Shown piece by piece: positions 28,101-64,000 of a DNA stretch of 64,000 nt (the stretch's first letter is position 1; each line of letters opens with the position of its first letter). A model generated the notes under the pieces. The model searched no databases, had not been told where the DNA came from, and saw nothing but the letters and a program-made list of their open reading frames with translations. The DNA is taken from positions 10,051,953 to 10,115,952 of the forward strand of contig OX424565.1 of the NCBI GenBank assembly GCA_949152475.1, given 5' to 3'. The stretch is from Terebella lapidaria (lineage: Eukaryota > Annelida > Polychaeta > Terebellida > Terebellidae). A program made the translations under genes and the position numbers.

Positions 28101-31100
28101 TTTGCGGCCTAGGAATCAATTGTGCACACCTAGGAAATGATATATGCTGAATATCCTCATGAACTTGCACTTGACCTCTGACCTTATTTTCAAGGCCAGA
28201 GCACAGAATTGCTAACATATCTCTTATTATCTGTTATCAACTTTACAGCTTAGGAATCAATTGTGAACATGTAGGAAATGATATATGCTGGATATTGTCA
28301 TGACCATCAATTTGACCTTTCATCTCATTTTCAAGGTCAAAGCACAGAATGACTAATACCTCAATTATCGACTTTACAGCTTAAGAATCAGTTGTGCACA
28401 TATAGGGAATGATATATGCCGAATATTTTGATGACCTTTAATTTGACCTTCAACCTTATTTCAAGGTCATAGAACAAAACTGCTATTATTTTACTTGTTA
28501 CTGACTTTACTGCTAAGCAATCAACTGTGGACATATGTGGAATGTTATACATGTTTGCTAGATATTCTCATGATGTTGCATTTGACCAGTGACCTTATTT
28601 TCAAGGTCATGGGACAAAATGAATAATACATAAAAAATATAATATATATTGTTCGGTAGCCTATCTTAGCCATTGGGCTAATTTTTTTTCCAGTGTGTGT
28701 ATGGTAATATTGTGAATAACTGTAATGGGGTTCCCCCGTTTCACAGGAATAATGTCCAGAAGGGGAACCTCAAAACTGCTGGGATCATAGTTGAATTGTT
28801 TGATTTGTTGTGTTTTCCGCAGTTTTGAAATAAATGTACATTAATTAATCTACATAACATCACTATTCCCGCAGCCTGTCATCCGGTGATCACGGATGAT
28901 GTGCCCTGTGATGACGGGTTTGGCTCTATATCCCCGCTCTGGATGTGTGACGGGATCGTCGACTGTTTCGACGAGTCGGATGAGGACATAGTAGTTTGCC
29001 AGGCTACAACTTGTCCTACTGGTAAGTTTTGTCACATAGGTCACGAACTGCGTGAGTTGCCGATATATTTTAGAAAAATATTGATGATTCCGGATCAGAG
29101 AAGAGTATGTTGAAAACTAATCATGGTGTCGTCAAAGTTTAATGCAAGATATACAAGGTAACTTAAATGTGATACATATTGTACGTGGGCTCTGCATGCG
29201 TGGTGCCACTCCACCCGTGTACACGTGTACATGTATTTATATTGACAGACTACACCCGATGTCCGGACGGCTTTTGTATCCGTAACGCGTTCTTCTGTGA
29301 CGGGGTGAATGATTGTAAAGGTCCAGGTGGAGTTCCATCCAACTTTGACGAGCTCCCAGCCAACTGCCCAGGTCAGTGTGTACACACAGATTTTCCTTAA
29401 AGACTAGGCTTCTCTTGAGACGAATTGAAGATGTACACACAGATACGAAACCAATATTATTTGTGTAATTCGTGATATCTGGATGGTAGAAGTGGCATAT
29501 GACCCAGAGGTGAAATAACAGTGAACAACAGACATGAAAACCATCAAACATTTACCATTATTATTATAAAGCAACAACCTATGAAACATTTACAAGTATC
29601 AATGTAAAGCACTAGCCGTATATTTGTAGATCCGTGTGGGACTAATCCGTGTCTGAATGGGGGAACCTGTTCCGCCAGTGGAACGAGCTACACGTGTTCC
29701 TGTGCCACGGGGTTCACAGGAGGCACCTGTCAAACAAACATAGGTCAGGACAAGCTCATCGTGATAGGTTTCTATGTTCATTTAGGCATTTCGGCAGAAA
29801 TGCCTTTAAGGTTTTAGCAGAATTTTTTTTCTCTTTTTTTTCCGCCTTTTTGGTCCCGATCGATATCTTTATTTTTCCTCGATGTATCTTCGCCAAGTCT
29901 TCAGCATTTGTCAGACATATTATTTGGAAGAACCCCATTGTTTTTCTACAAGATCCGAGGTTCGTGAGGTCCGTGAGAATGATATCCATGTCAATTTTTG
30001 GACTTTGTTTCCGCACGATAACTCAAAAAGTATACAGACAATGGATGCAAAATTTTGGCATGGAGGTTCATACAGCACAAGGAAAGAACCCTGTCGATCT
30101 TGGGATTTATCGGTCAATCTACCTCTGACCTAGGGGTCAGAAGAATTTTCGCCAAGTCATTAAAAGGTTTCCTGCATATCTTGGAAACGGTACAATGTAG
30201 AGCGAAACGGACGTTATTTTCGGACTCAACACCCTGACAAAATGTCTAATGGGTATTAGGGATGACCTCTGGCCTTGACCTTAATTTTTTTTCTCGCTGG
30301 GTCAGCATTCTTCATTTTCGTCGATATCTCGGAAACGGTGCGTCGTTGAGTGAAACAGACATTATATTCTTACTCATCGCTCTAGAAAAACATGTCTAAG
30401 ATTGTTAGGGATGACTTTTGACCTTATCTTTAATTTTTTTCAGACTCTTTGCCTTAGACAAACATGCCTGAAAGATGACCTTTGACCTTGACCTTAATTT
30501 TTATCGCTATCGCTTTTTTAAGTCTGATTTATACTGCTTGTAGAAACACACAACGACTATCTATATACTCAAGGCGGCAAACTGTTCTTTGTACCATTAG
30601 ATTCATTGTAATATATGCTGTAAAAACACAGATGACTGTGTGGGAACTCCATGTGACAACGGTGGTACTTGTGTGGATGAGGTGAATGACTTCTCGTGTA
30701 TCTGTGCTGCTGGCTTTACTGGGGCTAGCTGCCAAACCAATATAGGTATGCACTCATTACTTGTGATGTTTTCATCAAATCATAATTAACGTGGTCACCC
30801 CTACCTGGAATGAAAAGATGAGTGTGTGTGTCGAGTAATTACGACTTAAAAATAAATTTTGCAGATCAATTATCATGAAACCAACTGAGAAAATCAAAAC
30901 AAAAATCTTTTTAGTACCAAACATAAAATTAACATCTCAGCGCATATGTGGAACTATCAATACTCATCAATTTATCATTTAGTGACATAATATTTAGTCC
31001 ATGAACCACTTTTCACAGACGACTGTACTGGAGGTCCCTGTGACAATGGAGCCACGTGTGTAGATGAAGTAGATGATTTTTCCTGTGTCTGTGCTGCTGG

Positions 31101-34100
31101 CTTCACTGGAGATACCTGTCAAACTGATATAGGTAAACACAAAATATATATGGGGCCAGTATTTTATATGTATATCAAACCGCTAATAAAACTATACCAT
31201 TTCAAGGATAGATTACATCAGTATCACCAGAAGACAACATATCAATGCTATGATATATCACAACTAAGAAGGCTTAGCTTGTATCTGCGACAGCAAACAT
31301 CCAAATTCCACTATGAATCATTTTCTTTTAAGATGACTGTGCTGGAGGTCCTTGTGACAATGGAGCCACGTGTGTAGATGAAGTAGATGACTTCTCTTGT
31401 ATCTGTGATGCTGGCTTCACTGGAGATACCTGTCAAACTGATATAGGTATGAAACATGTCCATATGACATCTAAACTACTTAAAAAGGTTAGGGATATTA
31501 CCTGTGTATTCCTGAACATGGCATAAGTGATGAAAATGAGAATGTTATTTTTTTCTTTTTGACGTTTGAGTATCTATTTAGATTTCACAAATCCAGTCAT
31601 AGTGAATTTATGTGAAGAAGTACAAATTCCACTAAAAACATCGAAACAGCATTTTTATCAGATTTTTTTCAGAAGTTATGAACTTATTCATGTCTCGGTC
31701 TTTTTTTTCTGCAGACCTGTAAGTTGCTAAATATTGTTGGTCAATATTGGAGCTTCTAAGTCTCCAAACAAACATATTGACCTCGGCATAATTAATAAAA
31801 GTATGTAATCGTGTATGCATGCAGCTTTGAGAGTATCTGTGCATGCTCCCATTGAGACATGCTTATTTTCTGAACTGATAGTTTAATTCCACAAATTGGT
31901 TCGCGTTGAACAGCAAAATCTGTTCAGAAATACTGATAACTGCCTCTACTTGTATGGTTCAATGTGGTGTGTGGTATCGCAGTACTGATTATACTACATT
32001 ATCTGTGGCAAGTAGAACACAGATAACTATGTGAATAATTCCAAGTACCCAATGAATTTGAGTAAATGCAATTTGTTTACTTGTCAGCATTAAGCATCAG
32101 CTGCTCACTTGTGACGTGTAGAAAGGCACTGTATTCATGATATGCATGCATTTACAAAGTGTCTTGTTATGTGGTCTTTTTTCCAGACGACTGTTCTGGA
32201 GGTCCCTGTGACAATGGAGCCACGTGTGTAGATGAAGTAGATGACTTCTCTTGTGTCTGTGCTGCTGGCTTCACTGGAGAAACCTGTCAAACTGATATAG
32301 GTTTGAAACATGTTCATATGACATCTAAACTACTCAAAAAAGTTAGGAATATTACCTGTGTATTCCCTTGCATGACATAAGTGACTAAAATCGCTTTTTA
32401 TTTGATTCTTCTTTTGACCTTTAAGAATCAATTCAAAATTCACAATCACAGTCATAGTGAATTTATTTGAAGAAATACAAATTCCAAGAAACATTGGACC
32501 AGCGTTTTCTTCAGATGTTCTTCAGAAGTTATGGACTGATTTATGTCTCGGTCAGTATGTTTGTTTGCAGATCTGAAAGTTGCTAATATTGACTTAGGCT
32601 TCGCCTCATGTGATATTGGTGCTTCCAATTCTCCAAACAAACATATTGACCTCAACAAAAGTCTATAATTGATAAAAAATATGTACCCGTGTATGCCTGC
32701 AGCTTCGAAAGTGTCTGCATATGCTCCTATAGAGACGTGCGTATTATCTGTACTGATAGTCTAACGCCACAAATTGGTTTGCGTTGAACAGAAAATATAT
32801 TCAGAAATACTGATAAATGCCTCTAACTGTTTGGTTTAATGTGGTATGTGGCATTGCAGTACTGATTATACTACATAGATGATGAAGAATATTTTAATAG
32901 TGTACACGTGGCAAGCAGTACACAGATGGATATACTAATAATTCCAAATACCCAATGAATTTGAATAAATGTGAGTTTGTTTACTTGCCTGTATTATACA
33001 TTAGCTACTCCCTTGTGACTTGAAGAAATGAAGAACACTATTCATGATGCGTGTGCATTTACATTGTGTCTTGTTATGTGGTCATTTTTCAAGACGACTG
33101 TGCTGGAGGTCCCTGTGACAATGGTGCCACGTGTGTAGATGAAGTAGATGATTTCTCTTGCATATGTGCTGCCGGTTTCACTGGAGATACATGTCAAACT
33201 GACATAGGTATAATCGGAGTACTTTTTATTAATTATAATACCATTGATAAAACTATACCACTTCAAGCATAGATTACATCCGTATCACCAGAAGACAACA
33301 TATCAATAATGGTATATCACGACTAGGTAAGCTCTGCTTGTATCTGCGACAGCAAACATCCAAATTCAATTATGAATCATTATCTTTTAAGACGACTGTG
33401 CTGGAGGTCCATGTGACAATGGAGCCACATGTGTAGATGAAGTAGATAACTTCTCATGTACCTGTGCTGCTGGCTTCACTGGAGATACCTGCCAGACTGA
33501 CATAGGTATGAAACATGTCCATGTGACATCTAAACTACTAAAAAAACGTTAGGGATATTACCTGTGTATTCTTTTACATGACACTTTTATTATGAGAATG
33601 TTATTTTTTTGTCTTTTTTGACGTTCGAGTATCAATTTAAAATTCACAGCTACAGTCATAGTGAATTTATGTGAAGAAGTATAAATTCCAAGAAAAACAT
33701 AGAAACTGCGTTTTTTATCAGATTTTTTTCAGAAGTTATAAACTTATTCATGTCTCGGTCTTTTTTCCATAACTGTAAGTTGCTGGATATTGTTAATAAT
33801 ATTATAACTTTCAAGACTACAAACATATTGACCTCGACAAAAGTTCATGAATAATAAAAGGCTGTGATCGTGTATGCATGCAGCTTCAAAAGCATCTGTA
33901 CATGCTCCCATTGAGACATGCTTATTATCTGTACTGACAGTCTAATTCCATAAATTGGTTTGCGTTGAACAGAAAAATCTGTTCAGAAATACTGATAACT
34001 GCCACTACCTGTTTGGTTCAATGTGGTGTGTGGTATCGCAGTACTGATTATACTATATTGATAATGAAGATTATTGTAATAGTAATAAATGTTGCAAGCG

Positions 34101-37100
34101 GAACACATATAACTATGTGAATAATCCCAAGTACCCAATGAATTTGAATAAATGCGAGTTTGTTTACTTGTTTGCATTATACATCAGCTGCTCACTTGTA
34201 GCTTGAAGAAATGGAGAACACTGTATTGATGATGTGCATGCATCTACAAAGTGTCTTATTGTGTGGCTCTTTTTCAAGACGACTGTGCTGGAGGTCCCTG
34301 TGACAATGGAGCCACATGTGTAGATGAAGTAGATGATTTCTCTTGTACCTGTGCTGCTGGCTTCACTGGAGATACCTGCCAAACTGACATAGGTATGAAA
34401 CATGTCTATATGACATCTAAACTACTTTAAAAGGTTAGGGATATTACCTGTGTATTCCTTAACATGGCATAAGTGATGAAAATCCCAACTTTTATTATGA
34501 GAATTTTTTTTTTTTGACGTTTAAGTATCTATTTAGAATTCACAGATCCAGTCATAGTGAATTTATGTGAAGAAGTACAAATCCCGAGAAAAACATCGAA
34601 ACAGCGTTTTTTATCAGATTTTTTTCAGAAGTTGTGAACGTATTTATATCTCGGTCTTTTTTTTTTGGTGCAGACCTGTAAAATCGCTAAATATTCATGG
34701 TCGATATTGGAGCTCCAAGTCTGTAAACAAACATATTGACCTCGACAAATGTCCATAAATGATACAAGTCTGTAATCGTGTATGCATGCAGCTTCGAAAG
34801 TGCTCCCATTGAGACATGTTTATTATCTGTACTGATAGTCTAATTCCACAAATTGGTTTGCGTTGAGCAGAAAAGTCTGTTCAGAAATACTAATAACTGC
34901 CTCCACCTGCTTGGTTCAATGTGGTGTATGGTATCGCAGTACTGATTATACTATCTTGATAATGAAGAGTACCTTAATAGTGATAAATGTGACAAGCAGA
35001 ACACAGATAACTATGTGAATAGTTCCAAGTACCCAATGGATTTGAATAAATGCAATTTGTTTACTTGTCTGCATTATACATCAGCTGCTCACTTGTGACT
35101 TGAAGAAATGAAGAACACTGTATTCAAAGTGTTACAAAGTGTCTTGTTATGTGGTCCTATCTCCAGACGACTGTGCTGGAGGCCCCTGTGACAATGGAGC
35201 CACGTGTGTAGATGAAGTAGATGATTTCTCTTGTATCTGTGCTGCTGGCTTCACTGGAGATATCTGCCAAACTGATATAGATAAAACATAATATTCACAT
35301 GGCCAGCACTTCGTATGCATATCTAACCATATGGACAAGGAAAGTTGATAACACAATTGCTCACAAACCACTGGAATGGCTAAATCAAGCTTTCAATTCA
35401 ATAATGAAAAAGTGGGTCTTTTGAGATATTGATTCAAATTATCACCATTTCTTTACACCAAATTATCGCCATTTCTTTGCTTTTATTGCGCACAAGTAGT
35501 GGTAAAGCAGTCGTACCCAACAACTGCACCATACCAAAAGTGTACCTATTTTTGGCAGTAGTTTTTTTACTATTGAAAGTGACTTTTCCACACAGCCAGT
35601 TCACAATGAGTTTCTTTAAATTTGCTCACAAACTATCTAATTTTTATTCTGATTCTGATTGAGGGCATTTACGACAATGACCACGTGCTTATCATCTGTA
35701 CTGATTGTCTAATACCACAGACCGGTTTATACTGAACAGAAAAATGTGTTGAGAAATACTGGTAATTGCTTCTACCTTTTTGTTTCAATGTGGTCTGTGT
35801 TATTGCGGAACTGATTATACCGTATTGATAACGAATAGTATTTTAGTAGTGATAAATATGGCGAGCAGAATACATATAATTGTATGAATAATTCCAAATA
35901 CCCATTGAATTTGAATATATGCGAGTTTGTTTACTTGTCTGCATTATACATCAGATGCGCACTTGTGACTTGAAGAAATGAAGAACACCGTATTCATGAT
36001 GTGCGTGCATTTACAACGTGTCTTATTATTTTGTCGTTTTTCCAGACGACTGTGCTGGAGGTCCCTGTGACAATGGAGCCACGTGTGTAGATGAAGTAGA
36101 TGATTTCTCTTGCATATGTGCTGCCGGTTTCACTGGAGATACATGTCAAACTGACATAGGTATAATCGGAGTACTTTTTATTAATTATAATACCATTGAT
36201 AAAACTATACCACTTCAAGCATAGATTACATCCGTATCACCAGAAGACAACATATCAATAAGGGTATATCACGACTAGGTAAGCTCTGCTTGTATCTGTG
36301 ACAGCAAACATCCAAATTCAATTATGAATCATTATCTTTTAAGACGACTGTGCTGGAGGTCCATGTGACAATGGAGCCACATGTGTAGATGAAGTAGATA
36401 ACTTCTCATGTACCTGTGCTGCTGGCTTCACTGGAGATACCTGCCAGACTGACATAGGTATGAAACATGTCCATGTGACATCTAAACTACTAAAAAAACG
36501 TTAGGGATATTACCTGTGTATTCTTTTACATGACACTTTTATTATGAGAATGTTATTTTTTGTCTTTTTTGACGTTTGAGTATCAATTTAAAATTCACAG
36601 CTACAGTCATAGTGAATTTATGTGAAGAAGTATAAATTCCAAGAAAAACATAGAAACTGCGTTTTTTATCAGATTTTTTTCAGAAGTTATAAACTTATTC
36701 ATGTCTCGGTCTTTTTTCCATAACTGTAAGTTGCTGGATATTGTTAATAATATTAAAACTTTCAAGACTACAAACATATTGACCTCGACAAAAGTTCATG
36801 AATAATAAAAGGCTGTGATCGTGTATGCATGCAGCTTCAAAAGCATCTGTACATGCTCCCATTGAGACATGCTTATTATCTGTACTGACAGTCTAATTCC
36901 ACAAATTGGTTTGCGTTGAACAGAAAAATCTGTTCAGAAATACTGATAACTGCCACTACCTGTTTGGTTCAATGTGGTGTGTGGTATCGCAGTACTGACT
37001 ATACTATATTGATAATGAAGATTATTGTAATAGTAATAAATGTTGCAAGCGGAACACATATAACTATGTGAATAATCCCAAGTACCCAATGAATTTGAAT

Positions 37101-40100
37101 AAATGCGAGTTTGTTTACTTGTTTGCATTATACATCAGCTGCTCACTTGTAGCTTGAAGAAATGGAGAACACTGTATTGATGATGTGCATGCATTTACAA
37201 AGTGTCTTATTGTGTGGCTCTTTTTCAAGACGACTGTGCTGGAGGTCCCTGTGACAATGGAGCCACATGTGTAGATGAAGTAGATGATTTCTCTTGTACC
37301 TGTGCTGCTGGCTTCACTGGAGATACCTGCCAAACTGACATAGGTATGAAACATGTCTATATGACATCTAGTCTACTCAAAAAAATTAGGGATATTACCT
37401 GTGTATTCCTTTACATGGCACAAGTGATTAAAATCCCAACTTTTATTATGAGAATGTTATTTTTTTTGTCTTTTTTGACGTTAAGTATCAATTAGAAATT
37501 CACAGCTACAGTCATAGTGAATTTATTTGACGAAGTTCAAATTCCAGGAAAAACATCGAAACAGCAGCTTTCATCAGATTTATTTCGGAAGTAATGAACT
37601 TATTCATGTATCGGTCTTTTTTTTGCAGACCTGTAAGTTGCTAAATATTGTTGGTCAATATTGGATACCTGCCAAAGTTTGCAAACAAACATATTGACCT
37701 CGACAAAATTCCAAAACTGATAAAAGTTTGTAATCGTGTATGCATGCAGCTTCAAAAGCGTTTGTGCACGCTCCTATAGAGACATGCTTATTATCTGTTA
37801 CGCCACAAATTGGTTTGCGTTGAACAGAAAATCTGTTCAGCAATACAGATAAATGCCTCTACCTGTTTGGTTTAATGTGGTATGTGGCATTGCAGTACTG
37901 ATTATACTACATTGATAATGAAGAGTATTTTAATAGTGTACATGTGGCGAGCAGAACACAGATGAATATATTAATAGTTACAAATACCCAATGAATTTGA
38001 TAAAATGTGAGTTTGTTTACTTGCCTGCATTATACATTAGCTATTCACTTGTAGTGCTGCAGGATGGGCCACCAAATGGGAGGGGACCCGACATGACTGT
38101 ACTACATTTGTCCATAGGGTTTTTTTTGCAGATGTATATATCTAGTTGATGAAACACGATGATGCCAAGCCAGCAATCAAGGGGAAAATAAGTTATGAGC
38201 TTTTGAAACAGGGTACCGTATACAAGATTTTGTGCGAAAAATCGGTTTGCGATATTTAGGGGGAAAGGTTACTCAACAGACTGCCGTTCCTTACTGACTC
38301 GCAGGATCCCCACATATGGTGTATCTATGGATAGGTATTGTAATTGCCGTTCTAATGACGTCTGCTTGTCTTACTTATATTGAAGATTTACCTCGTTATT
38401 TCCAGTATAACCTTGTTGGTGACATGCAGCTTGATGCTATTTTCAGTCAAAGAAGCAACACTTTAGAGGGTATACTTCACACCATTTATTTTTTGCTGTC
38501 CAGGTCACCGCGATCATTTCATGCTATTCTTGCAATCAGTATTTAAATACTTTTCCAGCATTATCTGGATTATAATTTATTATGCATGCATGTAATTTAA
38601 AAGTACGACGAAAAATAATATGACAATACTTCCTCTAGATAGGAACAACAGTAATAAGGTGAGTCAATATCAGAAACTATAATCGATATATTATTGCTGG
38701 AAAGGTAATCACACACATACGTACGTACGCGTTTATCCTACATAATCACTGCATTAGAAGTTCCACAGGATAGTCACTACTTTATGAATCAATTGTGTCA
38801 GAATGGAAAAATAATCGAAATATAGCATCAAAAAGCATACATGTGTGTAAAAGCAACTTGATTTGATACAGATAGTTAAATATAGCAGTGAGATTTCATA
38901 CAGGAAAGTCTATTTTACTTACAGCGTCACACTTCAAATACACACATGAAAATCACTACTTCACATGCACACACGAAATTCACTACTTCATATACCTACA
39001 AGGAAGTCACTAGTTATTTTAACAAACATCGAAAACGAATAGCGACCTGCACGAGAAAGCAGATAACCGACTGGAATTACATAATTGATCAGATATAGCA
39101 TTGCACGGCATAATAATGTGTATACCAGCTTCATCATTCGTGAACATTCGACATCACAATCAATCACCAGTTTTCACATGAAGGTCACTACTTCAAGTGC
39201 GCACACGAAAAACACTACATCAAATACACACATTGAAATCACTACTTCAAATGCACACATGGAAGGCACTACTTCAAATAAACACATGGAAGTCACTATA
39301 TCAAATACACACATGGAAGTCACTACTTCAAATACACACCGAAGTCACTACTTCAAATACACACATGGAATTCACTACTTCAAATACACACATGGAAGTC
39401 ACTACATCAAATACACACATGGAAGTCACTACATTAAATAAACACATGGAAGTCACTACTTCAAATACACACATGGAAGTCACTACATCAAATACACACA
39501 TGGAAGTCACTACATCAAATACACACATGGAAGTCACTACATTAAATAAACACATGGAATTCACTACTTCAAATACACACATGGAAGTCACTACATCAAA
39601 TACACACATGGAAGTCACTACATTAAATAAACACATGGAAGTCACTACTTCAAATACACACATGGAATTCACTACTTCAAATACACACATGGAAGTCACT
39701 ACATCAAATACACACATGGAAGTCACTACATTAAATAAACACATGGAAGTCACTACATCAAATACACACATGAAAGTCACTACATCAAATACACACATGG
39801 AAGTCACTACTTCAAATAAACACATGGAAGTCACTATATCAAATACACACATGGAAGTCACTACATCAAATACACACATGGAAGTTACTACATCAAATAC
39901 ACATATGAAAGTCACTACATCAAATACACATATGAAAGTCACTACATCAAATACACACATGGAAATCACTACCTCATGACACACATGGAAGTCACTACAT
40001 CAAATACACACATGGAAATCACTACATCAAATACACACATGGAAGTTACTACATCAAATACACATATGAAAGTCACTACATCAAATACACACATGGAAAT

Positions 40101-43100
40101 CACTACCTCATGACACACATGGAAGTCACTACATCAAATACACACATGGAAATCACTACCTCATGACACACATGGAAGTCACTACTTCAAATAAACACAT
40201 GATGAACAGGTACAAACACGAATGCACAGGACAGTCTTGTGTAGGAGAAGGCAAGAACATGAAAAGGGCAGGTCGGGTGCATTTAGGAGAGGGAAGAAAC
40301 AGGAAAAGACAAGTTGAGAATACTTAGGATAATGCACAAACACGAACAGACTGGTTGTGCACATGTATTACAGGGTATCAACGTGAAGGGACAGGTCGGG
40401 CACATGTAGAAGAGGGCAGAAGTTGGAATGGACAGGAGAGCACTGAAGTCTAGAGGTATGGTAAACATGGTAAATATGAGAAACTGTATGAACATGAAGG
40501 GGCAGGTCGGATAAATGTAGGAAAAGACGTGAACACAGGTTGGGTACATGTGGGAGAGGGCATGAACATGCAAGAGACCGGAAACGAACGAAGAGACAGG
40601 TCGGCAACATGTAGGAGAGGGCATCAACATGGAGGGACATGTCGGCAACATGTAGGAGAGAGTATCAACTCGAAGTGACAGGTTGGCAATATGCAGTGGC
40701 CCAGGAACACGAAGGGATGTGTCGGGTATATTTAGGAGAGGGCAGAAACACGAAAGGACAGGTCGCATACATGTAGGATAGGGCAGGAATACGAAGAGAG
40801 AGGTCGGGTAAGTGTAAGAGGGTAGAAACACAGGGTCGGATAGATATAGGAGAGGACATCAAAACTAGGGAACAGGTCCAGTACATGTAGGATAGGGCAG
40901 GAATACGAAGGGACTGGTCGGGTAAATGTAAGAGGGCAGAAACACAGGGTCGGATAGATATAGGAGAGGATATCAAAAAGATGAGACATGTCAGGTACAT
41001 GTAAGTGAGGGCATCAACACAAAGGAACAGATCGGGAACATGTAGGAGAGAGCATTGACATGAAGGGACAGCTCGGCAACCTGAACGAGAGGGCAGGAAC
41101 ACCCAGAGACAGGTCGGATAGATGTTGTAGAGGGCTTCAACAAGGATAGGTCGGCAACATATATGAGCCCAGGACCACGAAGGGACAGGTCGGGAGATGT
41201 GAGAGAGGGCATCAACACAAAGGGACAGGTTGGGTACATGTAGGATAGATCATCAGCACAAAGAGACAGAGCGGCAACATGTAGGAGAGGGCATCAACAT
41301 GGAGGGACAGGTCGGCAACATGTAGGAGGGGGCCGAAACACAAAAGGACAGGTCGTGCACAATGTCATGTAGGGGAGAGCGGGAACATGAAGGGACGAGT
41401 CATGTTGATGTAGGAGGGGATAGGAACATGAAGGGACAAGTCGTAACCATGTGGGAGAGGACAGGAACACGAAGGGGGATCAACTACATGTAGGAAAGGG
41501 CACCAACTGAAAGAGACATGTCAGGGAGGGCAGTGACACAAAGGGACAGGTCAGGTACAAATAGAAGAAGGCAGGATCATGAAGGACCAGCTCTGATACA
41601 TATAAGAGAGAACATGAAGGGACAGGTCGGGTACATATAAGAGAGGGCAAGAACACGAAGGGACAGGTCGGGTACATATAAGAGAGGGCAAGAACCGAAG
41701 GGACAGGTCGGGTACATACAAGAAAGGGCAAGAACACGAAGGGACAGGTCGGGTACATGTTGGAGAGAGAGAGCAGGAAAACAAAGCAGAGGGCAGGAAA
41801 ACAAAGGGACAGGTCGGATATATAGGAAAATGCAAGAACACGAAAGACAGGTCGAGTAAAAGTTCAAGAGGGCAAAAAAAACAACGGGACAGGTCATCAA
41901 CATGTAGGACATGAAGGGACAGGTCGGGTAGATGTAGGAAAGAGCAGAATCACGAAAGTACAGGTTGGCAACATATAGGAGAGGGCAGGAACACTTAGGG
42001 ACATGTCGGCAACATGTAGACGAGGGCAGCAACATGAAGGGACAGATCAGCAACAAGTAGGAGAGGGCAGGAACATAAAAGGACGTGTCGGATATATATA
42101 GGAGAGGGCATCAAGACGACGGGGCAAGTCGGATACATGTAGGAGAGGGGCAGGAACACGGAGAGACAGGTCGGGTAAATGTTGGGGAGATCAGGAAAAC
42201 AAAGGGACATGTCGGATATATAGAGGATATAGTACAAGAGCACGAGGGGATAGGTTCCTATCTGATACTCCAAAGGCCAGTCGGTTGTTCCGTTCTGAGT
42301 ATTTAAATTATCGTTATATGTTCTGGTCTATATAAGGACTTGATTTAAACAGTCAGCCAAACTGTTCTCCCGTTCTGAGAGATTAAATTATAGTATTTTT
42401 TCGGTTCTGCGAGTTTATATGATAGCCAAGTATTGCTTAGAGAGTGTATATGCCAATCAGCATTCCTACTTGGATAAAGAATACAGTACATGGTGAACCA
42501 CGAGGGGCAATAGTCAATGACTATCTGCTCAACTTCCTGTTTTAGTGACCGAATGCAAATCTGCTGTTGTGTTCAGAGGGTGATATCATAAGATGTTATT
42601 TGCTAACTGACTGGTCTTCTCAATGAAATGTATGCAAATTAACATGTTTGTTTGTGAGTTGTTCTATCATAAATAAAACGAAACAATGATGAGTGTTTAT
42701 CCTGCGAAAAATCCCTCCAGACGACAATACTTCATCTGGATAAAACCTGCAATAATAGGACAAATCATTATCAGCCATGCACAACCATACATTGCTGGAA
42801 AGGTATTTCAATGCTGATTTTAATGGGGTATAACATGAAATGATTATAGTGTCCCAGACAGCAAAAAGTACTTTGGTGTAAGTATACCCTATAAAATGTT
42901 GCTTTTTCGACTGAAAATAGCATCAAGCTGCATGTCTCCAATGAGGTTATAAGGGGAATAACGAATTAAATCTTTGACACAAGTAAGAAAAGCAGATGTC
43001 ATTAGAAAGGTGATTACATTACCTATCCATAGATACACCATATGTGGGAATCCTCCCAGTCAGGAAGGAACGGCAGCCTGTTGAGTAACCATACACCCTA

Positions 43101-46100
43101 AATATCGCTAACCAGTTTTTCACACAAAGTCTCGTATACGGTACCCTGTCTTAAAAGCTCATAACTTATCAACTAGATATATACATCTGCAAGAAAAAAC
43201 CTGAGGACAAATGTAGTACAGCCATGTTGGGTCACTTGAAAATTAGAGCCCTTTTAGAGTTGGCCCTGCAGCACTATGAAGAACATTGTTTACATGATGT
43301 TTATGCATTTACAAAGTGACTTATTATGTGGTGTGTATTTTTTCCAGACGACTGTGCTGGAGGTCCCTGTGACAATGGAGCCACGTGTGTAGATGAAGTG
43401 GATGATTTCTCTTGTATCTGTGTTGCTGGATTCACTGGAGATACTTGTCAAACTGATATAGGTAAAACACAATATTCACATGGCCAGCATTTCGTATGTA
43501 TATCTAACCGTATGGACAAGATGGACACCGTTGATAGCACAATTGCTCACAAACCACTGAAATGGCTAAATCAAGCTTTCAATTGAATTAATGAAAAAGT
43601 GGGACATTTTTTGAGATATTGAACGAAATTATCACAATTTCTTTACACCAAATTATCGCCATTTCTTTGCTTTCATTCATTACAAGTAGTGGTAAAACAG
43701 TCGTACTCAAAAACTGCACCATACCAATAGTGTACCTATTTTAGGTGGTAGTTTTTTTACTATTGAAAGTGATTTTTCAACACAGCCATTTCACAGAGAG
43801 TTTCTTAAAATTTGCACACAAACTATCTAATATTTATCCTGATTCTGAATGAGGCCATTCACGACAATGACCACGTACTTATCATCTGTACTGATTGTCT
43901 AATACCACAGACCGGTTTACGCTGAACAGAAAAATTTGTTAAGAAATACTGGTAACTGCCTCTACCTTTTCAGTTCAATGTGGTCTGTGTTATTGCGGAA
44001 CTGATTATACTATATTGACAACGAAGAGTATTTCAGTAGTGATAAATGTTGCAAGCTGAACACAGATAACTATATGAATAATTTCAAATACGATATGAAT
44101 TTGAATAAATTCAAGTTCGTTTATTTGTCTGCATTATACATCAGCTGCTCACTTGTGACTTGAAGAAATGAGGAACACTGTATTGGTGATGTGCTTGCAT
44201 TTAAAAAGTGTCTTATTATGTGGTCCTTTTCCCAGACGATTGTGCTGGAGGCCCCTGTGACAATGGAGCCACGTGTGTAGATGAAGTAGATGATTTCTCT
44301 TGTATCTGTGCTGCTGGTTTCACTGGAGATACCTGTCAGACTGATATAGGTTTGAAACATGACCATATGACATCTAAACTACTCAAAAAAGTTAGGGATA
44401 ATACCTGGGTATTCCTTTATATGGCATAAGTGATTAAAATCCCAACTTTTATTATGAGAATGTAATTTTTTGTCTTTTATGACGTCTGAGTATCAATTTA
44501 AAATTCACAGCTACAGTCACTGTGAATTTATGAGAAAAAGTAAAAGTACAAATTCCAATGAGAACAGTGAAACAGCGTTATTTATCAGATTTTTTTTCAG
44601 AAGTTATGAACTTATTTATGTCTCGGTCTTTTTTGTGCAGACCTGTAAGTTGCTAAATATATTTAATAATATTGGAGCTTCCAAGTCTGCTGACAAACAT
44701 CATGACCTCGACAAAGGTCCATAATTAAAAGTCTTTAATCGTGTATGCATGCAGCTTCGAAAGTGTCTGTACATGCTCATAGAGAGACGTGCTTACTATC
44801 TGTACTGATAGTCTAATTCCACAAATTGGTTTGCGTTCAACAGAAAAATCTGTTCAGAAACACCGATAACTGCCCCTACATGTTTGGTTCAATGTAGTGT
44901 GTGGTATCGCAGTACTGATTATACTATATTGAAAATGAATGGTACTTTAATAGTGATAAATGTGACAAGCAGAACAGAGATAACTATGTGAATAGTTCCT
45001 AGTACCCGATGAATTTGAATAAATGTGAGTTTGGTTACTTGTCTGCATTATACATCAGCTGCTCACTTGTAATATGAAGAAATAAAGAACACTGTATTGG
45101 TTATGTGCTTGCATTTACAAAGTGTCTTATTATGTGGTCTTTTTTCCAGACGACTGTGCTGGAGGTCCCTGTGACAATGGAGCCACGTGTGTAGATGAAG
45201 TGGATGATTTCTCTTGCATATGTGCTGCTGGCTTCACTGGAGTTACCTGTCAAACTGACATAGGTGCATGGCATATGTATTATGATGTTTAATCTTTCAC
45301 TTTTTTGCACATTTGATCAAAATTTATTGGAATAATTTTATGCCATTTTAAATTTGTATCATTGACGTAGAGTAATATTAAAACATGTTTTTGCTTGGAA
45401 CACCATGCATCAAACCCTATCTGTTGTTTAGTGTAGAAATCTGTAAGGGGTATTCATGACATAGAAGACAAGACTGAGCTCCTCAACTATCTGTTGACTT
45501 CAACTGTGACAAGTATATTTATTGGATTTTTCTTTTCATGTTCTCAAGATGACTGTGCTGGAAGCCCCTGTGACAATGGAGCCACTTGTGTGGATGAAGT
45601 GGATAGCTTTTCCTGTATTTGTGCTGCTGGCTTCACTGGAGATACCTGTCAGACTGATATAGGTACGTAGCATATGCATTAGGAGGTTCAATCTTTCACA
45701 TTAGATCACATTAGATCAAAATTTCTCGGGCTTATTTGATGCCATTTTAAATTTGTATCATTTACGAAGAGTAATACTAGACATGTTTTTGCTTGGAACA
45801 CCATGCATCAAACCCTATATGTTGTTTAGTGTAGTAATATATAAGGGGCAGTCATAACATAGAAGACAAGACTGAGCTCTCCAACTATTTGTTAACTTCA
45901 GCTGTGACAAGTATATTCATTGGATTTTTATTTCCATGTTCTCAAGACGACTGTGCTGGAGGCCCCTGTGACAATGGAGCCACGTGTGTAGATGAAGTAG
46001 ATGATTTCTCTTGTATCTGTGCTGCTGGCTTCACTGGAGATACCTGTCAGACTGACATAGGTTTGAAACATGTTAGGGCAGCACAACTATTTGAGAGATT

Positions 46101-49100: not shown

Positions 49101-52100
49101 CACGTGATGCATTAACTTGGTGACTGCTTTATGGTATCCTGCTATCATACGCATTACAAACTAACAATGTATTTTACGAATGAGTAATTATTTTACAGAT
49201 GACTGTCTCGGAAATCCTTGTCAAAATGGAGCCACGTGTGTAGATGAAGTAAACGACTTTTCTTGTATCTGTGCTGCCGGTTTTACTGGGAATATATGTC
49301 AAATTGATATTGGTATGTGCAGTAACTTGGTGTGTTATTATTATCATTATTAAAATATATCAAAACCTTGTTTTCAACAATGTAGGCAAGTTGCTGGTTT
49401 ACACGTTTCGGAATTTTGATCTTGAAATTCAGTTAACAAAACTATGGAACAGCGGTCATGTGCAAACGTATTTGTCAGACATAGACATTTCGGCGTTGAG
49501 GTGTGCTCCTAAAATGTTGTTTTGCTCGGGTTGAACATAATCTTACTGCTTAAATACCATGCTTACTGCTATGGAAAATGTGCTGTGTCTGTTGTGTTGC
49601 TTGCCAGCCCTGTTGGCTTTGCTTGTGAAGTTATTATATTTATATGAATAGCACAGTCGACAATAGACAGGTACGTAGACTCGAGCTCATATATGTTTCC
49701 CAATGTTGTAGTTTGTACACATACAATCACATGGCCACAATGTACGAGATAACTTACATGTACATTGATTACTAGACGACTGTGCTGGAGGTCCCTGTGA
49801 CAACGGAGCCACGTGCGTGGACGAAGTAGACGATTTTTCATGTATTTGTGAAGCTGGCTTCACTGGACCACTGTGTGAGACTGATATTGGTAGGCATCAA
49901 TTCCAATCAAGTAATGTTAATCAACCTCGTCTTGTTGAATGCTAACCAAATTGTGGACGGGTTATGGTACGAATGCTCGTTGAAAATGGTTTAAACTTGT
50001 ATTGTTACTCTTTATGATGACTTGATGATTATCAACAGTCAAACTTACTGGCCACGATTATTGCCCTCAGCCATGGAACTTCACATCAGCCTTAATCACC
50101 CACAACGATTTAACCTAATGATAAAATAAATATCCTGGCACTAGACGACTGTGCTGGGGACCCATGTCAAAATGGTGGAACCTGTGTGGATGATGTGGAC
50201 GATTTCTCCTGTGTCTGTGTGACAGGGTTCGTAGGGGATACTTGTGAGACCAACGTCAGTAAGTACACTTTTGTCAATCTCCTGCACTGTATAATTCCGG
50301 GTTTTAGTTAACATGACTTGATACTTTGCAGATGGTATTTTCATACAATAAGTTGTGTGCTGGAGTAATATCTGATGTATGCACCGCCATTTTGGCTATA
50401 TGTTGACAACTAATTTTCCCCGTGAATTATTAATGTTGCCATTCTACAGACGATTGTGCCGGTGATCCCTGCCAGAATGGGGCTACATGTGTGGATGAGG
50501 TTGATGGCTTTTCCTGCATTTGTGTTGTTGGGTTCACTGGTACAGCATGTCAGACCAATATAGGTGTGGTATTTATTGTGGCTAACCCTTTCCATGAAAG
50601 AGTCCTCAATGATCAATGATCAAAATCGCCTTCATCTGTTCTGATTTCAGATATGTCGTATTATCATCGTTGATAACATTTGAGTGAAACGTGATTAATT
50701 TTTGTAATGTTCACATGAAGAATATATACATTAATTAAGTTTGTGTGATTTAAAATTTGTGTGATTTCAGAAATAAATATAACTATATTTATTTGTCAAG
50801 ACAAAGCTTGAAATCACATGTACATAGATATTTCAAAATAATATTTTCACCTTCTTTCTACGAGCATGTGCTTATGAATCCGATCTTGCCCTTCAATCTA
50901 ATAAAATGTTAAATAATATCTGCATATCTGCACTGAATAATATCTCATACATATGTTCGAAGGAGGTACTCATGCATGTCATTTCAATGAACCCGTTAAT
51001 TTTTCATACATGACACCTTTCGCTTTCAGACGACTGTGCTGGAGGTCCCTGTGACAATGGAGCGACTTGTGTGGATGAAGTAGATGATTTCACCTGTATA
51101 TGTGCTGCAGGATTTACTGGCGTTGTTTGTCAAACTGATATAGGTAGGATTTCCCAATATATGTGTGTGTTTCTGGTGATATTCAATGTCAAAGAGTATC
51201 TACTGTGCATATATATTTATTGTATCGTATAGTCAATGTATATATAGTCTACTTCGTTGCCACTTCCAAAACTGAAACATTACATTGTATTAATTAACAC
51301 TAGAAATGAAAAAGATCAGGTCATAGACGTTTTGCACTATATAGTCGTTTTTTGTTCGAACCAGACGACTGTGTTGGAAATCCCTGTGACAATGGAGCCA
51401 CGTGTGTGGATGATGTAGATGATTACTCTTGTATCTGTGCTGCTGGCTTCACTGGAAATATCTGTCAAACTGATATCGGTAATAACGTTTACTTTGCCTA
51501 TGTCATTGTGATATGTTGGTGTATGATATTGGCATGTTTGAAGCGTTTTGGGCAGATATACTTATCTACGTAAGTCTATGTTCATACGACTTTAATCAGT
51601 TATTTATGCTGATTAAATGTCATGAACGCAGTTGGTACAGTGTCATCCCCTGATAACATATTTCCATGTCGATTTCTTTGTGTTATGGTATTCTCGTATA
51701 CACTTTCACTATTGTGTTGTGGATAAACCTTCCTTTCTTTTTATGATACTTAGCACATGGTTCAAGGTGGTATTGGTTATCATATTCTTTGATATGACGA
51801 CATTGTCTGATTTCCATTATTTCATCAAAAACTGAAGGCAAACCACAATTGCTCTCTTCAAAATTATGTTTCAAACAGAAAACCCAGCAGCTTGCTAAAG
51901 ACGAAACTGCTCTGATTTGCCAAACACATATTCCATGGTGTACAATTGTTTTCATACCAGACGACTGTGCTGGAGGTCCCTGTGACAATGGAGCCACGTG
52001 TGTAGATGAAGTGGATGATTTCTCCTGTATCTGTGCTGCTGGCTTCACTGGAGATACCTGTCAAACTGACATAGGTTCGCATTTTAGGTCACAGTATATA

Positions 52101-55100: not shown

Positions 55101-58100
55101 TATGACAGTTTCAATACCTAGGTACATTATGGACACTGTTAGCACTTGGTATATGTCATAATTTTCACTATAATGACATGGCAATGATTACATATTTGAT
55201 GTTTCCGAAATTAGACTTAGTTCACCATTAAATTTGAATATGGAAATTCACTATCTTTGTTCTTAGACGATTGCGCTGGAGGTCACTGTGACAATGGAGC
55301 TACGTGTGTAGATGAAGTGGATGATTTCACGTGTATTTGTGCTGCTGGCTTCACTGGCAATATATGTCAGACTGATATAGGTTAGGTTTTTTGTAGGTCA
55401 CTGATATGTTGGAAAACAGATGGATTTCTGAAATGTAACTTTCTGTTGAATGCAGTTCATCTTTCACAATCAGTCATCAGGTTGATACACAGTTCGAGAT
55501 GAATATTCACAATCAGTTTTCATACTTTGTCATTGAGCGAAATGCTGTGTTTAGTTTGGTTGATATTAAATGTCTATTGTTACCCTTGTTGCATTAGTTT
55601 CTTGTCAGTGTCCGTGAAGAATTGCAGGAGGGGCACAATATGTGATATGCACTAAACTCTCAGTGTTTTTATCTTCGGGTTAAAAAATCCTAAACTAGCA
55701 GCATGACTGGACTTTTGAACATTATCATTGTTCTTCCGGTTGGTACATCAACATGTCTTATGTATAATCCAAGATGACTGTGCTGGAGGTCCCTGTGACA
55801 ATGGAGCTACGTGTGTAGATGAAGTAGATGATTTTTCTTGTATCTGTGTTGCTGGCTTCACTGGAAATATCTGCGAAACTAATATAGGTAGGTTGCCTTT
55901 ATGATGGGTTCAATACCAAGGTACATTATGGTCAATGTCAGACCCTGTTATTTTATAATTGTCAGCAAGACGATACTGTATTGGTAACATGATTGCTGCT
56001 TATGAGCATAGTTCATCAGTATTTTATTCAATCATGAATATTCATTATCCATGTTCTTAGACGACTGTGCTGGAGGTCCCTGTGACAATGGAGCCACGTG
56101 TTTAGATGAAGTAGATGATTTTTCTTGTATCTGTGCTGCTGGCTTCACTGGAAATACATGTCAGACTGACATAGGCTAGTATCAAAAATGCCCAAATCCG
56201 TCCCATTTATCTCAAACAATAATTTTGTAAATTATGCATTCAAAGATTGACCATTTAAAATAAATAACTTTCTCATTGCCAATTCGTAGTTCAGCCTCAT
56301 GCGGTAATTGTGTCATCCGTGTATCCCTTGTGCAATATATATTGTGATGTCATTTCAGACGACTGTTCTGGGGATCCATGTCTAAATGGTGGTACTTGTG
56401 TGGATGACGTCAACGATTTCTCCTGTGTCTGTGTCATGGGATTTATTGGTGATGTTTGTGAAACCAATGTCAGTAAGTATATTTTCTCTATTGTGATGTC
56501 TCCACTGAACCTTTTGCACGTCGTATAAAACTGAAGCGCTGTGTGTTTGGCACAATCGTCTCTATATGTCAGGAGAGCTACAAAAAACATGAATTAATGA
56601 AATGTCACGATCACCCTCTCTCTTTCACACCACTGTAAATTCCAATTGTTTATTATCCCCAAAATCAAGAACTATTTAGTCCGCTAGTAATATTCTTCAC
56701 AATTCACTAATGTTACGAACTTCAGGTCTCAACGTCTATTCACATGGAAGTCCAAAAGACATTCTACACCGGGGAACAGTGTGTGTGTTTGCAAGTGTCT
56801 GCTATGTTTCCTGCCTTCGAGCACGAGTTCGTGTCTGATTAGTGGATGAATGTATCATTCCCGTGGACTGTTCACTTGATGTCTGTGTGTCCGTGTTCAT
56901 GTGACATTCGCTGTCTGTTGTGTGTGTCTGGAATATGAACATATATTTGGCGCGGGTGTCCTTGATGTTGGTGTAAGTGCGTGGGCGTGTGTATACATAC
57001 ACAGTAGATGTAGGTGAGAGTACATGTTGGGGAGGGTAATGGACCGTTACTGTCACCCCTTCGTCAAACTACGCCCTCGAAGTTTACCCTGCCCATAAAA
57101 TACCAGTCCAAATTCTAAACATTATAAGCTAAACTCCTGAAGAGGGTACCCAACACACACGCTGCGCGAAACAATGTGAAATGAAATTACAACAAAATAC
57201 CTTACAGTCAGAACAACCGTCGTCAGTCAGTCCCCAACAGTCAAGCCATGATGAAACATGGCATGACACACATATATATATAAACAACAAGACATGACTG
57301 AACACATCACATGTACATATATGGAATGCACTTATTACTGTTCCCCTACGCTCTTAAAAGAACGGAAAATTGTTTATGCATGACAGAATTACAGTTCATC
57401 CACGACTGTCTGTAACTGAACAGAGTTAGCACGACATACTATCTTTTATTTCCGCACAACATATTCACAGATTCACCCAATATGGATGCAGTGACTTGGC
57501 AATTACGTGGATCACGGATGAGAATTCCAGGTCCACAAGCTGGCGCTCCTTCTGAAGGCTGTTCTATTGACCAGGCAGTGGAAGGCAGGGCGCTGGTGTG
57601 GAATGACCCATCATCATCAGCTTGTCGTGGGGCACAAATTTGGTGGGGCACCAATCAGACCAGTCATAACTTGGAATGGAGCCGGTATAGATGGAGAAGC
57701 CGACACTTCACGCAGCCCTGCCGCTTCCTGTGTCGTCCCTAATATCCCGTGGTGGGGGTGGGAGATCCAACTCTGTTGGAATGGATGAGCCCCAATGCGC
57801 GGATAGCACGAGAGACAGTTCCTGGGTTAGTTCGGCACAAAATGAGAGTGGAGGAAATTCCTCTGGTGGAGGCACGAAACCCTCGAGCACCCAATGGTCT
57901 GTTATATTAGGCATGGAAGGTCATTACCTTTCGGGATGACGTCCGAAGGTCGCTCCCAGGCAGGGGTAGAGTCTTTGGCGCAAGATAGAGCCGGGCTCGG
58001 TGAAGCATGGCTGGTTGCAGAGGCACGTATTGTAGAAGTGCAGTAGACGACTGGCCTTTCAAAGCAGATTGTGCACGTCAGAGTTTAGCAGTCTGATTTC

Positions 58101-61100
58101 ACTAGCCATCTGTAGGCTCCACTTACTAGTATCGTCCAATGCATTTCCACCCTTGAAAAACTTGACTCGGTTGAGAACGAGCCGCACGGCAGGGTTGGTG
58201 TTCAATGGGTATTGCTGAAATAACTGTGGCACTTGTGATAAGTTGTGTGATTGCGATAATTTGTGAGGTTAGCAATTGCGAGAATCTCTGCTGCATCAAT
58301 GGAGTCCAGGTATCCTCGCTTTTAGATGGGGAAGCCTGTCACATGCACGTGTGTGGCCTCCGACATGTGTCGAACCATTTCCACTTGAGTGAGGGTCACG
58401 TATCTGTGGGGCTCGATGTGGGCGCATGACATGCTTGGCAAGATGGCACGTCACTCACACGTACATTGCTCCGTCCCATGGAGGCTCAACAGCTAGCTGC
58501 CTGTGGCTCTTTATCCGCGTACATAGTATTAGAGATAACATCATTATCTATTATCCATTGCACAGTTCATCATCGTTGACATCAATCCAGTATCTCAACC
58601 GATAATATATGTACTGAGCTGAACGTTTCTTAGTCTTAGTCTTGAGGGTTTCGGCAAATCATCGCTCTTTGCTGATGATGGTGATGATGGGGAGGGGGAT
58701 GATGATGAGGGGGATGATATCGTTTCTTGTATAGCACATATCCCTGGGAGACACCTGAATCTATGCGCTTCCCACAAAGTGTTGTTTAAAGAAATGAGTC
58801 AAGCTTCTTTTGAAAGACTTGAGGTTTGGACTGTTCCTTATGGCAGTAGGGAGAGTTTTCCAGTAACGTGGGGCAACATTGCTGAGGCTTGGTTGCCTAC
58901 CTTCCGTCTGGATCCAGTGTGAACGAGGCTGGTGTCATCCGGTGCTGATTGAAGTGCCCTAGCCGGTGTGTACACTGGGAGAACCTAGGTAAGATGGTGC
59001 AAGCTGTTGGAAACACTTGTTACGTAGATCATGATACGAAATTGTGTCCGGAGGTAGCATGGGAGCCAGTGGAGATCAGCTAACACTGGGGTGATGTGAT
59101 CTCTGTGTGGTGAGCGTGCGATAATACGTGCTGCCTTATTCTGGACGATCTGCAAGCGAGGTGAGCTTGAGTAATGTCTCATAACAAGATGCTGCAATAG
59201 TCCAAGCGCGAGATAACAGAGCTTTGGATGGCAGTTTTGCAGGTATCATTTGTAAGGTACTTGGGACCTTTCCAATATTGCTGAGATGATGATTGCAAGA
59301 TCTAATGACAGCATTTACTCGATTGGACACGGAGAGATGCTGATCAAATTGTAAGCTTAAGTTCCGAACATATGAGGTTGGGTGGATGGCAATTGAGTAT
59401 ATACTGATTGATTGAGCACCAAAAACACGGAGTTGGTGGGTGGACATGAAACTCAGGAGTTTGTTATTTCCTGGTTAAGTTGCAGGTCGTTACTACTCAT
59501 CCAAGCTTTGATGTCATCAATGCATCGCTGGATGTTGTTCACAGCTGATTCGAGATCAAAAAGCAGGTCAAGATGCACAACAGAGTATTGGGAGGGTTTG
59601 CTTCCAAGGCGATTTTGTAGTCAACCTCAGTCACATGTTCGAGGATTTTCCGGGGCCCTGTCCAGGATCACTCGGTTTTATCACTCAGTGTGAGCGGCAG
59701 GGAATGTTGACAAACCAGTTCTTCTGGTTGGAATTGAGGCTGCGACACAGCGTAGGTGTCATATTCCATATTCTGGCGCACAGCAGCATGTTCCGGGTAA
59801 TCATGAGCGAACTCGTGTGCTGCTCTGATGGCACGACGCAGGTATTCCATGTATTCCCGTCCACATCTGGGAGTGGCTCCAGGTCGTATGACAGAAACAC
59901 AGAATCGACTGGCATATTGCATTAGCGTCTGTAGACCATCAGATGACGAGTGTTTTGATGTCCGGTACACCATCACCACATATGGAAGATGTAAATCCAA
60001 ATCAATATCGTGGTCGCTAGCAACCACGTTTGATGTAGCTGATTGTCAATATCTAACTGAGCGATCTCGGCGGTGGCATTTTGTGTTGACCTTTTGGGAG
60101 ACTGCACTTCCAATGGCGAATTCGCTGGCATCTGTGTCGGGGATGACATAATTATCCTCATTCTGCGATTGGTGCACAAACTTGAGCACTCAGATGATGG
60201 CGTCTTGCAGTCTCTCGAAGGTTCGGCGTTGCGGTGTTCCCCAGGTGAATTGGCAGTTGCCTCTGGTCAGTGCGACTAGCGTTTGGCCATCTCAGCATAG
60301 TCCTTGATGATCCTTCTATGGTAATTGGCAAAACCAATGAAGGCACTAACGTCAGTTATTTCACAACCACTAGTCTTCTTGATGGCTTTCACCTTGTTGG
60401 GGTCAACTCGTATTCCTTGCCCACTGAAGATGAATCCAAGTAGAGGATTTCACGCTGAAACAGATCACACTTTTTGTACAATCCGGCAGATCGTAACCTA
60501 TCCTGAACCGCTTCTAGGTTAGAAAGTGCCTGGTCAAATGTTCGCCTGTATGATATTACTTTATCCAGATAGCACATGCAGCGTTTCCACAGATATTTAC
60601 GGACGATGATCTCCATGAGTCGCTTGAAGGTTGCTCAGCCCGACTTTGGTTTATATCAGTTGACCTCTCAGCCGTTCTGCTGTTCACTTGAAATTTGTGT
60701 GTTGCCTGATAATTTTCTGGGATATGTATATGTATTTGGTGTGTGTTCCCTTGGTGTTGGTGTAAGTGCGTTGGCGTGTGTTTACATGCACGGTGAATGT
60801 AAGTGAGAGTAAAAGTGGGGGAGGGTTACGGGCCTTTATTGTCTTAAAATATACTACATTGAATGATTGAATGTTTCCAAGAGGTTGTACCTCAGTTTGC
60901 CAAAACTAAACATCCTCATCAACCGGCAGATGACTGTGCTGGAGGTCCTTGTCAGAATGGAGCGACCTGTGTAGATGAAGTTGATGGATTCAGCTGTATC
61001 TGTGCTGTTGGCTTCACTGGACCTGCATGTCAAATCAACATAGGTGATATTATCAAAATATTATGACAAAAAATGCTTGCATGCACACATTTCTCACAGT

Positions 61101-64000: not shown

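Follow-up and report, generated by a model that had tools for sequence, protein, structure and literature searches.

Separate exon and intron histories in a large EGF-module array of the polychaete Terebella lapidaria

The EGF array and its predicted genes

We analyzed a 64,000-bp window (C12:10051953-10115952) of the 761.6-Mb Terebella lapidaria genome, together with 100 kb on either side, and located EGF exons in this 264-kb stretch by six-frame scanning; positions marked w are window positions. The scan identified a total of 93 EGF exons. Because ends consisting of a membrane segment plus a tail recur along the stretch, we divided the exons among gene A, gene B, and a third set, which are predicted genes rather than transcripts (Table 1). 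In gene A, the larger part of which lies in the window, 2 LDLa exons precede 64 EGF exons, and the array is followed by one exon for a transmembrane segment and another for a basic tail; spliced together, these 68 exons encode 2,598 aa without a stop. Its EGF exons continue past the window to module 64, which ends at w84712, and the most hydrophobic 19-residue stretch comes directly after the last EGF. The joined N-terminal piece scores above the Pfam cut-off for Ldl_recept_a. In the 264-kb stretch, we did not find the first exon(s) or the stop of gene A, and a candidate signal-peptide exon at w24165 was rejected. Gene B includes modules 65 to 86 (22 EGF exons, to w95932), downstream of which come a hydrophobic segment (near w96193) and a basic tail (near w96417). 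Seven more modules (87 to 93) lie downstream of gene B, and this third set ends in a membrane-plus-tail frame (w106646-107212) that is similar, as judged by eye, to the other two ends; searching the genome with its tail returned nothing else at E 0.01.

In a profile search of the stretch, the only broken copy was a truncated EGF exon in gene B (w92526-92606, 81 of 114 positions); one other extra match, with an E value of 0.13, was dropped. We also searched the genome with one module, scoring 150 of 2107 candidates, and all matches better than E 5e-11 belong to the array on C12. A search of a phage collection gave no matches. Tandem repeats with units of 147 and 133-134 bp occupy w17421-19068, w26177-28628, and w61600-62514, and the units of the latter two blocks look alike.

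Table 1. Features of the array, in window positions
Feature	Position	Strand	Remarks
LDLa-like exon 1 of gene A	28875..29021	+	first recognized exon; 147 bp, phase 1-1
LDLa exon 2 of gene A	29249..29371	+	123 bp, phase 1-1
EGF modules 1-39 of gene A	29630..64000	+	module 39 extends to w64076
Modules 4-17	31333..46060	+	locally duplicated stretch; introns alpha/beta/gamma/delta
Exchange tract, copy 1	33126..34393	+	inside exon 6 to end of exon 8
Module 9	35167..35280	+	exon intact; donor (w35281-35282) is AT, not GT
Exchange tract, copy 2	36078..37344	+	inside exon 10 to end of exon 12
Intron 12	37344..43347	+	6004 bp, beta-type; other beta introns 740-800 bp
V-P landmark pair 1, modules 21-22	50145..50563	+	
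V-P landmark pair 2, modules 35-36	56359..61043	+	4.5-kb intron between
Gene A transmembrane exon	w85273-85351	+	beyond window
Gene A tail exon	w85718-85868	+	basic tail; beyond window
Gene B CBM_14 frame	w87490-87717		Pfam above cut-off

A sequence-only reading of the window had described at least 39 single-exon EGF modules, with every complete exon exactly 114 bp long and bounded by phase-1 ends, and our analysis confirms this description. The window contains 38 complete EGF exons (w29630-63865) and a 39th that crosses its edge (w63963-64076); all 38 are 114 bp long with an open frame, and all window EGF exons read as phase 1-1. AG acceptors are present at 39 of 39 window modules, and the donors of the 38 complete exons are GT in 35 cases, GC in two (modules 18 and 34), and AT in one (module 9). 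For module 9, skipping or mis-splicing is likely, and skipping would preserve the frame. Over the whole stretch, exon length is nearly constant: 63 of 64 gene A modules and 91 of all 93 exons are 114 bp, the two exceptions being number 62 (111 bp) and number 93 (120 bp, with the GT donor absent at the assumed place). Given that each module is one exon with phase-1 ends, the addition, loss, or skipping of a module would leave the frame intact. Exons account for 13% of the sequence across modules 2 to 63 of gene A and 31% across modules 66 to 85 of gene B.

Gene A is predicted to encode a giant single-pass membrane protein in which 2 LDLa domains and 64 EGF modules, mostly of calcium-binding type, are followed by a transmembrane helix and a tail that is short and basic. 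Pfam PF00008 matches the N-terminal piece plus modules 1 to 3 (E 4.9e-24, above cut-off) and modules 62 to 64 (E 1.8e-13). When we queried the PDB with a consensus-like trimer, the nearest solved modules were EGFs of Delta-like 1 and Notch. Using the PROSITE EGF_CA pattern and glycosylation motifs, we predicted calcium binding in 61 of 64 gene A modules and counted O-fucose motifs in 61, EOGT motifs in 56, and O-glucose motifs in none. Based on the calcium and O-fucose patterns, the likeness to Notch and Delta, and the predicted membrane anchor, the likeliest role of the protein, to which we give about even odds, would be adhesion or contact with the matrix, as a long rod at the cell surface stiffened by calcium, assuming that gene A is expressed with all of its modules.

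We compared the locus with known families of multi-EGF proteins. Notch and Delta arrays share calcium-binding and O-fucose motifs with gene A and include the nearest solved modules; however, Notch has 36 EGFs that are diverse, accompanied by LNR domains. Sea-urchin fibropellin has a C-terminal avidin domain. In the genome, LNR (PF00066) has 11 matches, none of them within C12:10.05-10.16 Mb (the sole C12 match is at 10.63 Mb); avidin (PF01382) has four matches, all on C11; and the ZP domain (PF00100), the mark of dumpy and ZP proteins, has six, none on C12. We therefore rejected membership in the Notch, fibropellin, and ZP-protein families, since these domains are absent at the locus. The scallop byssal protein Sbp9 is a bivalve structural protein that resembles gene A in its 49 tandem EGF-like repeats and differs in carrying a PCGGPC motif along with two CBD domains (PMC6244088). 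Identity with Sbp9 was rejected because Calx-beta (PF03160), the mark of Sbp9/EC, is absent at the locus (12 genome matches, none on C12), and identity with Sbp5-2 was rejected because the Sbp5-2 motifs hold two cysteines (PMC9117251). Elsewhere in the assembly, C150 and C186 carry long myosin-head frames with many in-frame TAA/TAG codons and no TGA, which suggests that both come from a contaminating or associated organism resembling a ciliate. A muscle-myosin-like gene lies at C1:67.002-67.016 Mb, where several copies match the same head positions (593-640 and 117-165), as for alternative exons. Among solved structures, a muscle-myosin fragment of this genome is closest to squid (3i5f) and scallop (1dfk and others) myosin.

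Protein uniformity, synonymous sites, and age

Mean amino-acid identity among gene A modules 2 to 60 is 85%, whereas the 114-bp modules of a control gene are 51% identical. The control was an EGF gene on C16 (C16:18617001-18627000, 10 kb read) whose modules are diverse and each encoded by a single exon. Of its 37 candidate modules, 15 were dropped for length or splice site, which left 22 that are 114 bp long and flanked by AG/GT. Because this C16 EGF gene, with AG/GT exons of 111-126 bp, shows only 51% identity, the uniformity of gene A is not due to chance. The sequence-only reading had stated that most modules share the same residues outside the cysteines, and "most" here amounts to about half: the exact 19-residue string is present in 20 of 39 window modules and in 28 of 64 gene A modules, and the rest of the window modules carry variants.

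Synonymous divergence provides an internal clock. Among 1711 pairs of gene A modules 2 to 60, median dS is 0.58 and median dN is 0.06, and dS exceeds 1 in 534 pairs; dN/dS ranges from 0.05 to 0.18, depending on the module set. Eleven modules, of which ten belong to gene A and one to gene B, encode a single protein sequence, yet they differ at synonymous sites (median dS 0.29). Because identical protein coexists with synonymous differences, protein uniformity alone is no proof of recency, and it owes much to purifying selection. For this reason, the earlier inference from protein uniformity alone to recent expansion or continuing homogenization was unsafe, and we rejected the idea that the uniformity is simply due to recent duplication, since dS is too high and the introns are unrelated. 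Two module types, V and P, serve as landmarks: each of the V modules (21, 35, 42, 52, and 58) is followed by a P module (5/5; pairs 21-22, 35-36, 42-43, 52-53, and 58-59). Pooled dS is 0.97 among V modules and 1.15 among P modules, so the array has an old skeleton. Across the remaining 33 modules of 18 to 60, dS is 0.48 (0.51 with one module per sister set, and 0.44 when modules 18 to 20 are also omitted). For twelve near-consensus modules (eleven in gene A plus module 84 of gene B), dS is 0.22, a value biased low by their having been chosen for nearness to the consensus. Repeats within this one genome are thus more alike than their age predicts, as in concerted evolution.

We expressed synonymous mismatch as a ratio to the random expectation. 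This ratio is 0.97 for the C16 control, compared with 0.63 in gene A modules 2 to 60, 0.61 in gene B, and 0.60 in a set of 26 gene A modules whose introns are unrelated. No pair in the 26-module set has a flank score of ≥20, although BLAST detects weak similarity between the upstream introns of two of its members, modules 32 and 34. Some third positions are nearly invariant (GAC in 47/47 at codon 9; GCT in 50/51 at codon 4). The C16 gene does not follow the codon choices of the array (171 versus 164 expected). Together with its near-random codons, this argues against a constraint on codon use common to all EGF exons. Overall, codon choice in the array is site-specific and common to exons with unrelated introns, which supports homogenization. 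The ratio is higher for V modules (0.81), P modules (0.83), and end modules (0.96). These modules escape homogenization, so exchange is incomplete, in keeping with the 534 gene A pairs whose dS exceeds 1. Within-exon linkage disequilibrium (LD) falls with distance in gene A without V and P modules (p=0.0095) and in genes A and B together without them (p=0.0005); the decay is not significant in C16 (p=0.39), in the 26 unrelated-intron exons (p=0.36), or in all of modules 2 to 60 (p=0.14). Similarity between modules does not rise with their proximity in the array (one-sided Mantel p=0.97, 0.10).

At two further EGF loci, the synonymous ratio is 0.53 (C14, 14 modules) and 0.28 (C1 array, 42 modules), and these loci are homogenized too. 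The C1 array (C1:53441994-53528799) is far more uniform than the one on C12, with 114-bp exons, two alternating short introns, and a period of ~237.5 bp; its introns are homogenized as well as its exons. We read 10 kb of it (C1:53515001-53525000), which contains the 42 modules, and it would hold ~365 if the period persists over 87 kb. A genome search with this array, in which 150 of 2073 candidates were scored, returned 150 of 150 that were 100% protein-identical.

Exon and intron histories

Most introns of gene A are unrelated to one another. Comparing 120-bp flanks across the 1711 gene A pairs, we found similarity upstream in 43, downstream in 32, and on both sides in 14. Intron families are found chiefly in modules 4 to 17, 26 to 29, 45 to 48, and 67 to 84, and their members align mostly from splice site to splice site. 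In the first of these stretches, the families are alpha (introns 3, 6, 10), beta (4, 5, 7, 8, 11, 12, 14), gamma (9, 13), and delta (15, 16). The 3' half of the gamma introns matches beta and the 5' half does not; they may therefore be hybrids of beta and other sequence, with the break inside the intron. Of the homologous intron pairs, 67 match at both splice sites and 30 at just one end; 36 exon pairs are flanked by homologous introns on either side, compared with 89 for which a single side is homologous. These counts stem from few founding events. The single-module duplications 4/5, 7/8, 15/16, and 80/81 need junctions in or at exons, because joining two unrelated introns would produce a hybrid intron and there are none there. 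Intron 12 is enlarged by ~5.2 kb of minisatellite-bearing DNA (27-bp and 41-bp minisatellites at w38926-42215) with relatives on many chromosomes; a 1-kb piece of the insert has 180 genome matches, itself included, and the insert is probably a dispersed mobile element with tandem repeats.

The exons have a different history from these introns. If introns had traveled with their exons, ~73% of the flanks of gene A exon pairs at dS 0.1-0.3 should be homologous, based on a simulation with the observed indel rate and with dS error allowed (83-99% at exactly d 0.3-0.2, without dS error). The 373 such pairs, which are non-independent and whose individual dS values are based on few synonymous sites, have homologous flanks in only 38 of 746 cases, and 341 pairs, spanning 44 exons, have no homologous flank. 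A second line of evidence comes from the 33 pairs of sister modules with both flanks homologous, a set that omits the recent-tract pairs 6/10, 7/11, and 8/12. Pooled dS is 0.217 in these pairs compared to a flanking-intron divergence of 0.142, although choosing sisters by intron similarity may bias intron divergence downward. Exon dS exceeds intron divergence in 25 of the 33 pairs and in 11 of 14 exon-disjoint pairs (Wilcoxon p=0.005, sign test p=0.057), some of which have a flanking intron in common. Counted by intron, 30 pairs have a mean exon dS of 0.232 and a mean intron divergence of 0.121. This excess in sisters indicates that synonymous sites are not specially constrained and that outside sequence apparently entered the exons. 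Together, the low flank homology and the sister-exon excess point to exons taking sequence from elsewhere.

One exchange tract is directly visible. It is ~1.27 kb long, both of its ends lie at exons, and its two copies are ~99.4% identical, with eight differences in 1,268 columns counted after the exon's first 32 bases; outside the tract (300 bp upstream, 400 bp downstream), ~20% of columns differ. Similarity also crosses genes: exon 56 of gene A and exon 84 of gene B differ at 2 of 114 bp, and the identity ends at the splice sites, where the flanks match near chance (10/25 and 9/25). Compared with four modules of its own upstream intron family, exon 84 shows 11-13 differences. GC content at fourfold sites is 0.35 compared to 0.37 in introns, so there is no visible GC-biased conversion.

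Interpretation, alternatives, and precedents

Our preferred explanation, to which we assign a probability of roughly 0.7, is ectopic gene conversion and unequal crossing-over with the exons as the sole homology, combined with purifying selection. Homologous recombination requires shared sequence. The array is old; purifying selection keeps the protein of its main modules alike, and once introns have diverged, the 114-bp exons are the only homology left for exchange. Conversion confined to the exon, together with unequal crossing-over whose junctions fall in exons, would then operate in the germ line, both inside gene A and from one gene to the other; with only the exons homologous, conversion tracts would end at exon edges and crossovers would fall in exons. 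We also lean, with less confidence, toward a broader statement: the EGF exons of neighboring genes may form one exchanging pool, in which 114-bp exons are overwritten within and between genes, the introns keep a separate history, positional identity is lost, and module number drifts through exon crossovers.

An old array held alike solely by purifying selection on the protein would fit the low dN/dS and the conservation of the V and P protein types at dS ~1. We nevertheless consider it unlikely, as it leaves unexplained the site-specific synonymous codons shared by exons with unrelated introns, the near-identical exons in different genes, and the presence of dS 0.44-0.51 beside dS ~1 in one stretch. 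If the synonymous sites themselves were constrained, for example by splicing enhancers or RNA structure, the result could mimic exchange, and the near-invariant third positions are compatible with this. However, dS in sister modules exceeds intron divergence, the V and P exons have dS ~1, and the C16 exons are near random, which makes such constraint very unlikely.

Recent expansion by ordinary block duplication, in which exon and intron are copied jointly, holds for modules 4 to 17, 26 to 29, 45 to 48, and 67 to 84, where the introns are homologous. As an account of the whole array it is quite unlikely: so few of the 1711 gene A pairs have similar flanks, and low-dS pairs mostly lack flank homology despite high power, which contradicts it for most modules. 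Of the two possibilities raised by the sequence-only reading, homogenization is thus supported by the shared codons and unrelated introns, whereas recent expansion holds only locally and fails for the V-P skeleton. The exons might instead be cassettes used alternatively, like those of arthropod Dscam, and not parts of a constitutive rod, given that symmetric phase-1 exons are skippable in frame and that module 9 has an AT donor. We regard this as extremely improbable, since the full 64-module splice is open and the modules are homogenized here, whereas no gene conversion was reported between the duplicated Dscam exons tested in Daphnia (PMC3236188).

Internal repeats that evolve in concert have precedents in dumpy, spidroins, and tenascin, and exchange from exon to exon in equal-length arrays has one in Tetrahymena. 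The LRR genes of Tetrahymena are arrays of 90-bp exons, and their authors suggest that the exons undergo ectopic recombination or gene conversion as well as unequal crossing-over (PMC6564038). Both systems have equal-length single-module exons, one intron phase, and near-identical exons across genes; the Tetrahymena case differs in being a ciliate LRR system with phase 2 introns and retroelement association, whereas ours is an animal EGF array in which exon and intron histories are decoupled within one array. Drosophila dumpy, like the gene A product, is a giant membrane-anchored EGF protein, and its PIGSFEAST repeats evolve in concert, ascribed to unequal crossing-over; its homogenized unit is a 102-aa non-EGF repeat in a large exon, and it has a ZP domain (PMC2930355). 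The Argiope MaSp2 spidroin genes share with our array within-gene repeat homogenization, alternating intron types, and gene conversion, but their within-gene introns average 97.6% alike, which is proposed to aid homogenization, whereas the introns here are mostly unrelated (PMC9779670). Tenascin EGF repeats are likewise homogenized within the gene, in a different domain architecture (Hughes 1999, as described in PMC2267704). Among the literature matches listed, searched by titles and abstract openings and mostly outside the subscription literature, there was no description of exon-confined homogenization of an animal EGF array.

When repeat proteins evolve in concert, the usual explanation is joint duplication of exon and intron. 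Here, one genome provides a built-in test: block history is preserved in the intron families and age in the V-P pairs, and the main exons fit neither. The array makes exon-confined conversion, with a homology limit of ~114 bp, directly testable, and matching the modules of such arrays across species by sequence would be unsafe.
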